From Anaerobacillus sp. (GTDB lineage: Bacteria > Bacillota > Bacilli > Bacillales_H > Anaerobacillaceae), in NCBI GenBank assembly GCA_007120055.1, contig SKOL01000435.1:1-5739 (forward strand): a stretch of 5,739 nucleotides of DNA, written 5' to 3'. Positions 691-5,739 of this stretch are shown here, piece after piece (position 1 is the stretch's first letter; each line of letters starts with the position of its first letter). The position numbers and the translations under genes were made by a program. The notes under the pieces were generated by a model. The model was not told the DNA's origin and ran no database searches. It saw only the letters and a list, made by a program, of their open reading frames with translations.

Positions 691-1863
691 TTAGGAATTA
701 AATTTATCCTGTAAATAATTTTGTATTGCGCGATTTGCAATAAAAGATACGAGTTGAAAGTTCGGTAACGTTATATCTTCAATTATATACTCATCATTTT
801 TTTCTATGACCACTGTTTGAGTATCAAAAAATCTGTTGTTACTATCCGGATTTTGATGAGGAGGATTTTTACCTTCATGAGTAAACTTTGATCTGTGAAC
901 ATAGAGGTCATTAAGAATTTTCCTTATCTCATCCTCAGTAAAATCTTCAGGATATTTCTCATACCATTGTTTCTGTAAATACCAATCATCCTTACGACCA
1001 GTAAGTTCTTCTATATAACTCACCATATTCGCTCTTGGATGTTTTAAATCTAGCCATTGCTCAGGTGGGCAATATTCCATAATAAATTCTATAACTCTCT
1101 TACCTAAAAATTGTGATTTACCACGCTCGTCCTTGTACAAACTTAGTAATTCATTAATGTCATTATTTGTTTTAGCTAATTGCTTCCACTTATCTTCTTT
1201 TGGGTGCTTGATTACAAACTTCTTTCTCTTTACAGCCTTTTTTGCCATAGTCTCCATTGATGAAACCAAGAGATAATATGCTAAACCAAAGTCATCCCTT
1301 TTATTAAGATGGGATAAATGGACAAGTCTTATAGATTGCATTGTATTCTCATACAATTCATAAGGTATACCATAAACCATTTTAAATGTTTCTTGTAAAT
1401 TTTCATATATCCTATTTAACGTTTCTTTGGATATACTGGTGTCATGTGCACCTGGTCCTGCAGTTAACACTGGAAATTGAATAGCTAATTCCTCAAGTGA
1501 ATTTTGATCTAAATTCTCTCTCCGTGTTATATACCCATCCCTAGGTGCTTTTACTGGTCTCCTTGTAGCAAAAGAAAAGACTGACGCAAGAGCAATAGTA
1601 AAGAGATGTGCATTATGCTCCCACTCAAACCATTTAGGTAATTGAACAGGTGCAATAAAACTTGCATATGCTCCTGGAAGTCTTACTTCAAAGGTTGGCT
1701 CAATCTTAAAATAATCAAACTCTAACTCCTCAGTAAGTCTAAAATCCAGTAGTAAATAACCTATAATGGCCTTCCCATCTTCATTCACTTTAATTTCTTC
1801 CGGACGAAATATCGGAATACATTCGTTAAATAATACGTGATCTTCTGTTACAGCTCTTGACAT
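691..1863 (-). CDS. HEPN-like protein of unknown function (390 aa)
   Basis: The frame is open upstream to 2079, but the start at 1863 (MSRAVTEDH) is chosen because GGGAGGT lies 7 bases before it (plus 1871-1877). The extra upstream residues look like translated leader. I do not recognise the protein by name. Residues 1-170 are mixed hydrophobic and acidic with no motif I can place. Around residues 190-215 a helix-like stretch with AYYLLVSSMETM resembles the first helices of ApeA-like HEPN domains. Residues 321-330 read YVHRSKFTHE, giving an RX4H motif (R324, H329) followed by G331, the usual catalytic signature of HEPN ribonucleases. No signal peptide or membrane segment is seen, so it is probably cytoplasmic. 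HEPN proteins of this kind often act as RNases in phage defence or toxin systems, but no partner gene is next to it, so a defence role is only inference. Confidence 0.65.
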   Translation of the reverse strand: MSRAVTEDHVLFNECIPIFRPEEIKVNEDGKAIIGYLLLDFRLTEELEFDYFKIEPTFEVRLPGAYASFIAPVQLPKWFEWEHNAHLFTIALASVFSFATRRPVKAPRDGYITRRENLDQNSLEELAIQFPVLTAGPGAHDTSISKETLNRIYENLQETFKMVYGIPYELYENTMQSIRLVHLSHLNKRDDFGLAYYLLVSSMETMAKKAVKRKKFVIKHPKEDKWKQLAKTNNDINELLSLYKDERGKSQFLGKRVIEFIMEYCPPEQWLDLKHPRANMVSYIEELTGRKDDWYLQKQWYEKYPEDFTEDEIRKILNDLYVHRSKFTHEGKNPPHQNPDSNNRFFDTQTVVIEKNDEYIIEDITLPNFQLVSFIANRAIQNYLQDKFNS

Positions 1864-2807: not shown

Positions 2808-2999
2808 ATGGACCAATTAGCAATGGCGTATCAAGGACAAATGGTAGAAATTAGAGATACTTATGGTGGAATTCATACTGGAATTATCGAAGGTGTAAAT
2901 CAACAAAGAGGTTTATTTCTTCGCACATCACCCTTTAGAAGGATATTTATTCCCTTCTTCCTAATCACATCTCTTCTTCTTTTAAGACGTTTTTTCTAA
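2808..2999 (+). CDS. Small probable spore membrane protein (63 aa)
   Basis: The ATG follows GGAGGTG (2793-2799) by 8 bases. Residues 8-40 (QGQMVEIRDTYGGIHTGIIEGV and on to GLFLR) have the alternating pattern and glycine turns of a small Sm- or SH3-like beta barrel, with a G-x-V-x-I-x-D start and a GxIxGV strand. Residues 43-63 form a basic, aromatic, hydrophobic tail (RRIFIPFFLITSLLLLRRFF), probably a membrane anchor flanked by arginines. Similar short proteins with an IPFFLI tail occur in Bacillaceae as uncharacterised products. I cannot assign a function. The SigK-like promoter and the neighbouring YjcZ-like gene suggest a late sporulation role in the mother cell or the spore coat. The gene stands alone, with its terminator about 85 bases downstream. 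Confidence 0.8.
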   Translation: MDQLAMAYQGQMVEIRDTYGGIHTGIIEGVNQQRGLFLRTSPFRRIFIPFFLITSLLLLRRFF

Positions 3000-3110: not shown

Positions 3111-3130
3111 ACTTCTTGCTCCAAAAAATA

Positions 3131-3239
3131 AAATTATTTCACAGTTTCTAGTCAACTAAGAAAGACGATCACTTTTAATGTAATCGTCCCTCTTAGTTGG
3201 TTATTCTATTGCCAGTATCCTTATACTGCGCAATAATAA
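3131..3239 (+). repeat. Copy B of the ~100-bp hairpin-forming repeat
   Basis: This copy has the best-preserved hairpin. CAACTAAGA (3153-3161) pairs with TCTTAGTTG (3191-3199), and inside it GACGAT (3164-3169) pairs with ATCGTC (3183-3188), leaving only an AA/CC internal loop. The right end TATACTGCGCAATAATAA (to 3239) is intact. The left end has lost about five bases of the TGCTGCGCA motif (TTTCACAGTTTC instead). It shows the uninterrupted form of the end that is broken in copy C. Confidence 0.85.
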
Positions 3240-3283
3240 AATAACTGTTTTTATTAAAAATTCCTTTGCTTCCAAGAGTACAC

Positions 3284-3337: not shown

Positions 3338-3541
3338 ATGAATAATCAACATGAAGATCACATTATTGACACTGTTATCTCTTTGCTAGACATTTTGGTA
3401 ATTATTCAGATTGAAGACGATCCAATTATAGGAATTGTTCTTACTACTCTTTTAAAAGTTGTTACAAAAGACCGTCTAACACGAATATTATTAATTTTAT
3501 TGGTTATTATCTTAGGTGAAGTTTCAGAGATTAAAAGCTGA
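3338..3541 (+). CDS. Small hydrophobic peptide (67 aa), unknown function
   Basis: The ATG follows AGAAGGGA (3322-3329) by 8 bases. I do not recognise the product. A short polar N-terminus (MNNQHEDH) leads into hydrophobic stretches at about residues 9-24, 29-43 and 49-60, separated by acidic (IEDD) and basic (TKDRLTR) turns. This suggests a membrane-associated helical peptide. It has the same layout as the two genes before it: its own promoter, a short frame, and a terminator that overlaps the coding end. A sporulation role is therefore plausible, but it rests on context and a weaker promoter match. Confidence 0.65.
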   Translation: MNNQHEDHIIDTVISLLDILVIIQIEDDPIIGIVLTTLLKVVTKDRLTRILLILLVIILGEVSEIKS

Positions 3542-3560: not shown

Positions 3561-3579
3561 GAAAAAATAAACTACTTCA

Positions 3580-3671
3580 TCTGCTGCGCAATTAGAGTCA
3601 AATAAGAAAGACGCTCACTTTATATGTAATCGTCTCTTTAATACTTATTCTATTACCAGTATCGTTGTACT
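3580..3671 (+). repeat. Copy C of the ~100-bp repeat, left part, cut by the insertion sequence
   Basis: TCTGCTGCGCAATTAGAGTC opens the copy, followed by AAATAAGAAAGACG, TATGTAATCGTCTC and TTATTCTATTACCAGTATC as in copy B. Where copy B continues TACTGCGCAATAA, copy C stops after GTACT (3671) and runs into unrelated sequence (CCCTCAG). The missing end is found at 5485-5493. Confidence 0.85.
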
Positions 3672-3782
3672 CCCTCAGTTAGATTTAATTTACTCGCAAA
3701 TGCTCGCTTATTCGAAGGATTTCAAAACCCTTGTAAGAACAATAACGGATGAATGGAATGAGTAATGATCATAAAGGCTACA

Positions 3783-3854
3783 TGAAGGCATGCGGGAATA
3801 GAGGAGTTAATAGTAGCTCCTTTTATTTCCATAATATACTGCACGCATTCTTCA
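3783..3854 (-). other. Nested hairpin between guide loops and element end
   Basis: On the minus strand TGAAG plus GCGTGC (from 3854 down to 3841) pairs with GCATGC plus CTTCA (3793 down to 3783), with an AAT bulge. Inside lies an 8-bp hairpin (3802-3821). One pair in GCGTGC/GCATGC is G-U on the minus strand but A-C on the plus strand, favouring a minus-strand RNA. It may be the 3' part of the bridge RNA or a DNA structure for the recombinase. Confidence 0.5.
3802..3824 (+). terminator. Plus-strand terminator-like hairpin inside the insertion sequence
   Basis: AGGAGTTA (3802-3809) pairs with TAGCTCCT (3814-3821) with one T-G wobble and a 4-base loop, followed by TTTT. In this direction it would stop transcription entering the element from the upstream genes. 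Confidence 0.45.
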
Positions 3855-3859
3855 CGCCG

Positions 3860-3997
3860 CCCCTGGAGGCTATCCCTCCCATGTCTCAACGGGTCATTTG
3901 CCCTTTCATTCCTTCGTCATGCCTATCCAAGGGGTGGAGGCCGGTTTTGCTGCGCAAACGGGTCAGTGCCCTTAGGTACAACGGTATCCAGTACTCC
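3860..3997 (-). ncRNA. Bridge RNA (seekRNA) of the IS110-family element
   Basis: Transcribed in the recombinase direction, this region forms two similar loops about 70 nt apart. The first has the outer stem 3994-3997/3936-3939 and 3988-3991/3941-3944, the second 3931-3934/3860-3863, 3927-3929/3864-3866 and 3921-3924/3867-3870. Each contains a short inner GGG/CCC hairpin in a shared frame (AAGGGCA, then TGACCCGTT) that separates two guide stretches. The first loop matches the insertion target: CTGCGCA at 3950-3956 equals 5483-5489, and 3976-3986 matches the complement of 3660-3670 at 10 of 11 bases. The second loop matches the element ends: CATTCCT at 3907-3913 is the complement of 5476-5482, and CTCCC at 3876-3880 equals 3670-3674. 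In IS110-family elements such an RNA pairs with both target and donor DNA and guides the recombinase. The exact RNA ends and promoter are not visible. The RNA may be longer, up to the inverted repeats at 3706 and 4026. Confidence 0.85.
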
Positions 3998-4101
3998 GCG
4001 CTTTCTCTGTAATCCTACGAATAAGCCAACATTCAAAAACTTTTTATCTAAATTAACCTACTTTCATTTTCTTTAAAGCCATACTTAGTTCATGATAAGA
4101 A

Positions 4102-5376
4102 TTATGCTGCGATAGGTGCTAATGGTTGTACTTTCTGAGAACAATATGGTTCATGACTTTTAGCTATTGCCACCAATATTCTTGCTAGTTTTCCTACGAG
4201 TTTCATTATAGATTTCATTTTTTTCATCTTTTTGACGTTAACATTATTAAAATGAATCTGCTTGAAATCAGAGTTATTGCTCACAAGACTTAATGTCGTT
4301 AAAAATAAAAAGCGCCTTAGTCGAGATCTCCCACGTTTAGAGACTACAATTTGTCCTTTCCATTTACCTGAGCTTGCTTCTACCAGATGCAAACCCGCAT
4401 GCCGTAATAGAGAATTACCATGCGCGAAGCCACTTAAATCACCAGCTTCTCCTAAAATACCGGCCAATGAAATTTCACTAATTCCTTCAATGGCAAGTAC
4501 TTTTATAGCGAAAGTAATTTGGTCAAGTACGGAAGTGACTTCTTTTTCTACTCTTTCGAGTTGGGTTTTTGCTAAATCGAATTCTTCAAGTAAATGTTCC
4601 AAATGAAGCTTATAGGCTTCATGAGCTTGTTTACTACCAACAGAACTTTTGGCTAAGTCAATTAGCGATTGTGCTTTTTTAAGTCCTGCGTGACGTTTCA
4701 TCACTTTTTTCCAACCTTCCACAATATCTTGTGCTTTCATGGAACATAGTTCTGAAGGTGTAGGAAATAACCGAAGCGTTGCGATTGCCCCTTTACCTTT
4801 TACATCTTTAAATACTTCTCGAAGTTCAGGGAAGACAATATCTACCCAACGATTTATTTGGTTAATAGAACTGGTGAGGCGTTTGACGGTTACATCTCGG
4901 TTAGCCATTAGTACTCGAAGCTTTTCAAAAGCTTCAGAAGTGGGCCGGATAAAGGAGTAATACCCATTCTTGATCATATCTGCAATCACAAGGGCATCCT
5001 TTTTATCGCTTTTAGATTGGGTATTATCACGATTTTCTTTATTTCTTTTCACATGGTGAGGATTAACTGTTACTACATCAATATCTTGATCATATAGCCA
5101 TTTAGATAGACTCAACCAGTAATGTCCGGTAGGTTCCATCCCAACTATTTCAGTATTCAATCCTTTTAAAAGTTTTAAATGATTAATCCATTCTATTAAT
5201 CTAGCGAAACCTTTCTCGTTATTTTCAAAAGTGAGAGGATTACCGACGACAATACCACGAAAATTTACAGCACGAGCTACGTGTGTTTGTTGAGCAATAT
5301 CCACACCAACTACAAGATGTTTATCAGAAATTCTTTCAATTAGTTGATTTTGTTTGTCTTGCATTTTAAACTTCAT
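4102..5376 (-). CDS. IS110-family transposase (RNA-guided DEDD/Ser recombinase, 424 aa)
   Basis: The start at 5376 is set by AAGGAGG (plus 5387-5393) ten bases upstream; the next ATG, at residue 5, is too far away. The N-terminal RuvC-like DEDD domain (about residues 18-165) has VGVDIA (D26), GMEPTGHYW (E81) and KSDKKDA (D124, D127) as the metal-binding acidic residues. A long helical, lysine- and glutamate-rich middle (about 165-290) fits the coiled-coil linker of the family. The C-terminal Transposase_20 domain (about 293-360) has IEGISEISLAGILGE followed by EASSGKWKG, whose serine (S336) is the expected strand-attacking nucleophile, and RGRSRLRR. The frame is intact with all expected catalytic residues, so the enzyme may be active. 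It would excise the element as a circle and insert it at sites chosen by the bridge RNA encoded just downstream at 3860-3997. Confidence 0.97.
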   Translation of the reverse strand: MKFKMQDKQNQLIERISDKHLVVGVDIAQQTHVARAVNFRGIVVGNPLTFENNEKGFARLIEWINHLKLLKGLNTEIVGMEPTGHYWLSLSKWLYDQDIDVVTVNPHHVKRNKENRDNTQSKSDKKDALVIADMIKNGYYSFIRPTSEAFEKLRVLMANRDVTVKRLTSSINQINRWVDIVFPELREVFKDVKGKGAIATLRLFPTPSELCSMKAQDIVEGWKKVMKRHAGLKKAQSLIDLAKSSVGSKQAHEAYKLHLEHLLEEFDLAKTQLERVEKEVTSVLDQITFAIKVLAIEGISEISLAGILGEAGDLSGFAHGNSLLRHAGLHLVEASSGKWKGQIVVSKRGRSRLRRFLFLTTLSLVSNNSDFKQIHFNNVNVKKMKKMKSIMKLVGKLARILVAIAKSHEPYCSQKVQPLAPIAA

Positions 5377-5426
5377 ATAAGAGCTTCCTCCTTAAGGTTG
5401 AGTTTTAGAGTGGTGTCTATACTCAT

Positions 5427-5455
5427 ATCTTACTGAGGAGCTCTGTTTTTTTCAA
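5427..5455 (-). promoter_or_regulatory. Promoter of the transposase gene
   Basis: On the minus strand TTGAAA (plus 5450-5455) and TAAGAT (plus 5427-5432) are separated by exactly 17 bases and lie about 50 bases before the start codon. The -35 is one base off SigA consensus, the -10 two bases off. It lies wholly within the element's short left end, so expression would not depend on the insertion site. Confidence 0.55.
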
Positions 5456-5482
5456 AGTCGAAATTAACGCACTACAGGAATG

Positions 5483-5493
5483 CTGCGCAGTAA
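5483..5493 (+). repeat. Right remnant of copy C of the ~100-bp repeat
   Basis: CTGCGCAGTAA continues the repeat that stops at 3671. Together the two pieces read GTACTGCGCAGTAA, close to the palindrome TTACTGCGCAGTAA and to TATACTGCGCAATAA in intact copy B. Confidence 0.8.
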
Positions 5494-5583
5494 GTGATTT
5501 TTTTATTAGTTGATCTCTTCAACTCCTCCTTAATTTGACACATTTTATAAATACCTCAAAACTATATGTGAGGATCCAACTAA

Positions 5584-5739
5584 TTAAATATTCAACCATA
5601 CAGGTGGGAGTTTGTTCGTTTGTTGTCGTTGACTTCTTGTAGCATTTCGGGCAAGCTGGATTGCTCTCATAGCATCTATTCTGCCAAATCGAATCGTTCC
5701 TCCTGAAACGGATTGGATTCCAGCTCGCTGAATAATCGA
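5584..5739 (-). CDS. C-terminal 51 residues of a gene running off the window
   Basis: The minus-strand frame is open from the window edge to the TAA at 5584-5586. Its composition is that of a real protein, not of the AT-rich spacer. The segment SVSGGTIRFGRIDAMRAIQLA resembles the end of the catalytic domain of S8 (subtilisin-like) peptidases, where a GxGRxDAxxAV motif follows the active-site serine region. It then ends in a basic, glutamine-rich tail (RSQRQQTNKLPPVW). The family call is tentative because the catalytic residues lie outside the window. A weak CCTCA/TGAGG hairpin just downstream (about 5556-5575) has no T run. Confidence 0.6.
   Translation of the reverse strand, partial: SIIQRAGIQSVSGGTIRFGRIDAMRAIQLARNATRSQRQQTNKLPPVWLNI

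Follow-up and report, generated by a model that had tools for sequence, protein, structure and literature searches.

What do the 430 bp behind the IS110-family recombinase gene of an Anaerobacillus sp. contig encode, and how does this region relate to the guide RNAs described for IS110 and IS1111 elements? The window referred to below is the whole stretch of DNA analysed, 5,739 nucleotides of contig SKOL01000435.1 (assembly GCA_007120055.1), with positions counted along its forward (plus) strand. A preliminary description of the window had read a bridge RNA with two paralogous guide loops in this region. The comparison with relatives presented here makes it very probable that these 430 bp hold the gene of a bridge RNA, which has the same direction of reading as the recombinase and would work by the mechanism proposed below.

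Recombinase gene and element ends

The recombinase gene occupies positions 4102-5376 of the minus strand and encodes a protein of 424 aa, identified by Pfam, NCBIfam and alignment. It contains the Pfam domains DEDD_Tnp_IS110 (E 3.1e-34) and Transposase_20 (E 6.4e-14), and it scores 205.4 bits with the NCBIfam model transpos_IS110, for which the cut-off is 140. The residues D26, E81, D124 and D127, which we assigned as the DEDD residues, and the pair S336-G337 are unchanged across ten aligned sequences including that of the window. The predicted DEDD RuvC-like domain and C-terminal domain with a conserved serine are those of the IS110 family. In a recombinase tree, the clade of this protein, within which the L223 recombinase also falls, is separate from IS4321 (the sole IS1111 member included), ISEc21 and IS116 with a support of 97/100; the branches are long and the deep forks weak, so that the place of the clade among IS110 and IS1111 is not settled by this tree. 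The open frames at 691-1863 (-), 2808-2999 (+), 3338-3541 (+) and 5519-5737 (-) gave no Pfam match at E 0.001.

The element ends were defined from 79 loci, taken from the best 80 of 178 stretches encoding a recombinase relative and including loci from Aquibacillus, Salipaludibacillus, Neobacillus, Peribacillus and Paenibacillus. The ends are common to these relatives and the flanks differ. The insertion element comprises the 1811 bp between two core copies (3672-5482, minus strand), or 1815 bp with both cores. Read on the minus strand, the left end (5472-5484) consists of the core AG (5483-5484) followed by CATTCCTGTAG, and the right end (3670-3682) of CTAACTGAGGG followed by the core AG (3670-3671). 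Relatives share this left end, with CATTCCTGTAG behind the core AG, and their right end reads CTGAGGG before the core AG, which corresponds to CT on the plus strand. In the group of L083, L084, L087-L089 and L114, AAC or GAC stands before the left end and AG at the right end, and the two cores seem to differ.

The insertion has interrupted a copy of a dispersed repeat (3580-3671, plus strand, by eye) at its TACT/GCGCA end. The opposite side of the broken target lies at 5483-5515 (plus strand) and resembles, by eye, the loci L209 and L211, which look like unoccupied sites with window-like flanks. The CT core alone is present on both sides of the insertion, as in a scarless insertion, and the element would presumably have entered as a circle. 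The insertion site of the window is thus the end of a dispersed repeat, with further copies at approximately 2233-2340 and 3130-3236 (by eye). When outlined by the bounding sequences TGCTGCGCAGTA and TACTGCGCA, again by eye, the copies in the window cover 295-345, 2225-2345, 3120-3240 and 3570-3671. The repeat contains an inner hairpin-like stretch and is also present in genome G017 (L211, L216); it is possibly a small mobile repeat.

Structure and distribution of the downstream RNA

The preliminary description started from a unit of about 70 bp present twice in diverged form, with short sequences recurring at offsets of 71, 69 and 68 bases. These offsets were reproduced for TGGAGGC (3864/3935), AACGGGTCA (3888/3957) and GCCCTT (3900/3968), the last of which occurs once more at 4990 on the minus strand. 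Aligned locally, the two units score 25, a value that none of 2000 letter shuffles attained (mean 13.2), and most of their likeness falls within the inner hairpin (AAGGGC..TGACCCGTT).

The fold was read from an alignment of 59 downstream regions, from whose consensus 56 pairs were named by hand; all of its features lie on the minus strand. The closing helix P1, an inverted repeat with 22 pairs in the alignment, joins 4012-4035 (5' strand) to 3697-3720 (3' strand). This long-range helix encloses the whole RNA, which goes beyond the layout described earlier. The helix P2 (5' strand 3998-4001, 3' strand 3841-3844) joins the target-binding loop (3941-3991) and the putative donor-binding loop (3850-3939), which carry inner GGG..CCC hairpins at 3960-3971 and 3891-3903, respectively. 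A third hairpin, GGAG..CUCC, occupies 3803-3820.

Standard pairs fill 98.2% of the cells formed by the 56 pairs and 59 sequences (95.4% after shuffling), double changes affect 16 pairs (7.8 shuffled, at most 6 when the structure was slid) and 115 cells (30.6 shuffled, at most 19 when slid); the shuffles keep kinship, and the structure, being drawn from the same 59 sequences, is favoured over the slid versions too. Double changes were found in 7 of the 22 pairs of P1, in one of four pairs of P2 (UA 27, CG 26, UG 6), in three of four pairs of the target-loop outer stem, which is paired in 100% of cells, and in three of ten pairs across the two inner stem stretches of the donor loop. Two of the four pairs of the third hairpin have changes on both sides. 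No double changes occur among the 59 sequences in the inner GGG/CCC hairpins of both loops, which provide no covariation evidence because they are nearly invariant, nor in the outermost donor stretch CUCCAC/GUGGAG, within which the window has one C-A mismatch. Judged by covariation, the relatives share the conserved two-loop structure expected of a bridge RNA.

The succession of stem, guide, hairpin and guide that had been ascribed to each unit agrees with this covariation, and its extent had to be revised, since the donor loop reaches 3850. The two outer stems do not pair alike, although GCCTCC recurs in both. Homologues carry the region and their stems covary, and neither of the two homologue-based observations named at the outset as speaking against a bridge RNA (a missing region, or stems without covariation) was made.

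The direction of reading had been deduced from the first outer-stem pair, which is G-U on the minus strand only. Over the 59 sequences this pair is C-G in 42, U-G in 15 and U-A in 2, and two closing-helix pairs are U-G in 56/59 and 45/59 sequences. These U-G pairs are standard on the minus strand only, and the RNA is therefore predicted to be read in the recombinase direction, as first proposed. The segment 3840-4020 alone folded no better than its shuffles (z 1.71 on the minus strand, z 0.79 on the plus strand), and because folding of the loops from a single strand gave no signal, covariation was used for them. The longer segment 3680-4060 of the minus strand did beat its shuffles (z -3.38, 0/100 as good). 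Promoter-like sites numbered 4 against 5.1 expected, and terminator-like sites 3 against 1.5 expected (sd 1.2). Two relatives have truncated forms of the region: in L023, target loop and donor loop have been fused by a deletion at the hairpin sequence that they share, which leaves a single-loop RNA made up of the 5' half of the former and the 3' half of the latter, and in L001 the element ends abruptly directly past the target loop.

A covariance model built from the two loops matched all 18 genomes preselected for carrying the element and 81 of the 104 genomes in the family of G016 (Paenibacillus at L075). At the loci with weaker matches, a recombinase relative found by tblastn adjoins the RNA in 31 of 37 stretches, two of which (L080 and L111) overlap; the matched segments are 34-55% identical. 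Covarying stems, guides that track the flanks (see below) and the nearness of a recombinase relative to the RNA in 31 of these 37 stretches together uphold the proposal of a bridge RNA behind an IS110-family recombinase.

Target guides and handshake position

In the target-binding loop, the left guide CGUUGUAC (3976-3983, minus strand) has its last base inside the core, equals the plus strand at 3663-3670 and, in relatives, tracks the right flank. The right guide with the core, UUGCGCAG (3950-3957, minus strand), tracks the left flank in relatives; in the window, five of the six pre-core bases of the left flank CTGCGCAG equal this guide and the sixth makes a U-G pair.

A first set of 81 left-end sites in 80 sequences yielded 75 rows, of which 69 and 66 were used in the two guide tests; one-loop copies, L023, L072, absent or short flanks and N runs were left out. 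The right guide matched the six left-flank bases before the core at 314 of 414 positions (n=69; shuffled mean 204.7, maximum 243), and the left guide matched eight bases of the other flank at 449 of 528 positions (n=66; shuffled mean 331.1, maximum 373). Neither value was reached in 5000 shuffles, and the same holds when identical guide/flank pairs are counted once (204/294 for the right guide and 288/360 for the left guide). In a second set, nearly all rows of which come from genomes in the family of G016, the right guide matched at 147/174 positions (29 rows, 132.8 shuffled) and the left guide at 235/384 (48 rows, 192.3 shuffled), with 0/5000 shuffles in each case. The first set alone contains 17 distinct right and 24 distinct left target guides. 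In L009, two guides and two flanks are altered together; the flanks of the S. neizhouensis copies L004-L007 match their guides poorly. As would be expected of a bridge RNA, the target loop is complementary to its target.

With at most two mismatches, the predicted target was found at nine sites in G017 and eight sites in G003, and the reversed pattern at none in either genome; these target-like sites read as unoccupied. In all other genomes the numbers equalled or came close to those of the reversed control, with 1 vs 0 sites in G001, 3 vs 2 in G002, 1 vs 1 in G004, 4 vs 2 in G007, 1 vs 1 in G010 and 0 vs 0 in G008.

In IS621, as PMC11208158 describes it, strand exchange is followed by pairing between bases past the core guide of one loop and the other DNA. 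The corresponding target-loop bases of the window are CA (3948-3949, minus strand), the first of which equals the first left-end base in AG-core rows. This agreement holds in 101 of 101 AG-core rows (C in 74, A in 24, G in 3) and in 0/20000 shuffles, which keep kinship, so that each state may be one old change inherited by many rows. In the AC-core group, none of the 16 rows that have a left end shows the match (guide G, end A), L080 and L111 being one place. The handshake table holds 133 of 204 rows, after 67 without an AG-core right guide in the parser and four duplicate sites had been dropped. A left end was parsed in 101 of the 133; the other 32 comprise 26 in which none was found, one of another kind and five with AG directly before ATTCC, where agreement would extend to the first base (A) but not to the second. 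For the donor loop, the handshake base makes a Watson-Crick pair in 43 of 114 rows (of the 133) against 31.8 after shuffling, with 9/20000 shuffles as high. The C and U types, a subset picked after seeing the data, fit in 42/54 rows (27.4 shuffled), or in 52/54 with G-U pairs, and the G types, including that of the window, show no fit, with 58/60 opposite A.

Putative donor loop and alternative readings

The left donor guide GAAGGAAUG (3907-3915, minus strand) ends in seven nucleotides equal to the plus strand at 5476-5482 (AGGAATG), and the last five nucleotides (GGGAG) of the right donor guide CAUGGGAG (3876-3883, minus strand) equal the tail of the right end GAGGGAG. Over the 65 parsed rows of the second collection, the six positions compared between left donor guide and left end agree fully in 40, show a difference at the final base in 24 and differ further in one. 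For the right donor guide, 89 rows were available: a right core AG goes with AG in the guide in 61/61 rows, AC (20 rows) with AU in 16, which is a G-U fit, and with AG in four, AA (six rows) with AG in five and AU in one, and AT with one each. The left donor guide and left end have changed jointly in L185, where the end CCTTCC matches the guide GGAAGG, and the guide alone has changed in L187. The group of L178, L184, L185 and L189 has the right core AA, the left guide CCCGUUAC plus UU and the donor guide GGAAGG; no left end was found for L178, L184 and L189. Because the changes in relatives speak partly for and partly against a donor function, we call it likely that this loop reads the joined ends of the element.

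The strongest rival to this reading is that the target loop alone guides, as a seekRNA would, and that the second loop, its paralogue, has a role in structure or in protein binding. According to the transposition experiments in PMC11187229, a smaller seekRNA of 70-100 nt sufficed for ISEc11, and a loop that does not read the donor would suit the nearly constant left donor guide, the change of guide without end in L187, and the disagreement of right donor guide and right end in 4/20 AC rows and 5/6 AA rows. We nevertheless consider it unlikely, given that the matches of seven and five nucleotides to the two ends follow the order and orientation of the published IS621 scheme, that guide and end changed together in L185, and that the right donor guide is altered in 16/20 AC rows against 0/61 AG rows.

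Far less probable is that DNA features, either recombinase binding sites or an attenuator, account for the inverted repeats and hairpins. In the closing helix, the core (ATTCG.AGGA with TCCT.CGAAT) is nearly invariant, which would suit such a role, but the frequent U-G pairs of the same helix are standard only in an RNA of the minus strand, and the guides track genomic flanks. The notion that the guide/flank match is an artefact of flanks that belong to the element or travel with it can practically be dismissed, since copies of one element (L002-L007) differ in flanks, sites reading as empty exist and 0/5000 shuffles reached the observed matches, even if some clades hold to one guide and one target type.

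In the bridge RNA reading, transcription of the region would give an RNA that the long helix and the third hairpin fold into a single domain of about 340 nt, and this RNA would form a complex with the recombinase. Through its left guide and its right guide UUGCGC plus AG, the target loop would pair with the two DNA strands surrounding the core CT at the chosen site, and the donor loop, in pairings that are for the most part predicted, would bind the element where its ends meet in the circle. The RNA-bound recombinase would unite target and donor and exchange strands at the core, and the base past the target-loop core guide would then pair with the incoming donor end in a handshake.

Comparison with IS621 and IS1111 elements

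Several features are shared, or probably shared, with IS621. The descriptions of its bridge RNA in PMC11208160 and PMC11208158, as far as they bear on these points, include two loops, each composed of a left guide, an inner hairpin and a right guide; a 5' loop for the target and a 3' loop for the donor; a CT core; and, in the target loop, handshake bases past the core guide (PMC11208158). The recombinase is also related in sequence (8wt6, E 4e-10). Unlike that of IS621, the RNA of the present element follows the recombinase gene, with the 22-pair long-range helix closing it and a third hairpin as a further part; the recombinase is longer (424 aa, compared with 328 aa), and the donor-loop handshake base of the window does not fit.

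Other features are those of the IS1111 seekRNAs (ISEc11, ISPa11, ISKpn4) as characterized in the pertinent passages of PMC11187229, namely an RNA downstream of the transposase gene, a top-strand guide 5' of the bottom-strand guide, and folded repeats among the targets. In the window, the guide for the top strand (recombinase sense), CGUUGUAC, precedes UUGCGC in the 5' to 3' direction, which is the IS1111 guide order. The element differs from this group in its longer recombinase (424 aa against the 330-350 aa stated in PMC11187229) and in a donor loop that is readable. Subterminal inverted repeats of 7-17 bp, typical of IS1111, did not exceed chance: with 40 nt per end and at most one mismatch, the mean longest end match was 7.09 over 56 distinct pairs of the first set, compared with 7.16 for random pairing. 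TTAATTT is present in both ends of the window and absent from L008 and L009.

In the overview given in PMC11208160, the RNA region belongs to the left end for most IS110 elements and to the right end for IS1111. Here it lies in the right end, downstream, an arrangement of the IS1111 kind and not the left-end, upstream one of the IS110 group. As read from its sequence, the element combines features of both published groups. The passages of PMC11187229 on IS110-type elements note as exceptions some with a downstream noncoding region, which share with the present element a long recombinase, the lack of long subterminal inverted repeats and the position of the RNA region; this clade and those exceptions are probably of the same kind. 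The same source reports the guide order for one IS110 member, ISEc21, with the region upstream, and sets the IS110 and IS1111 groups apart by their guide order and perhaps also by their mechanism. On the CT-carrying strand, the guide order of the present element would be that of IS621, with the gene cassette alone reversed.

Rfam gave no match at gathering scores, and the clade is a variant of the kind of RNA known from PMC11208160 and PMC11187229. Within the literature searched, which left most subscription papers and all preprints outside, no paper was found that treats IS110, Paenibacillus and bridge RNA together, and handshake, bridge RNA and IS110 occur together in PMC11208158 alone.

A wider interpretation, which we put forward tentatively and are slightly more inclined to doubt than to accept, is that the clade breaks the published pairing of features, being an IS110-type element with the RNA position and guide order of IS1111; that its RNA of about 340 nt represents a new structural class; and that guide order is set by the position of the RNA gene and not by the recombinase group, with one mechanism for both. 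If this is true, the guide order on the CT target strand would be identical in all groups, and handshake pairing would take place in AG-core elements. The many natural guide variants (17 right, 24 left, with the RNA in 81/104 genomes) amount to ready natural reprogramming experiments, from which, for elements with a downstream RNA, one can learn how long the guides are, which mismatches are tolerated and how far the handshake rule applies. The clade also provides Gram-positive systems in which these questions may be tested.
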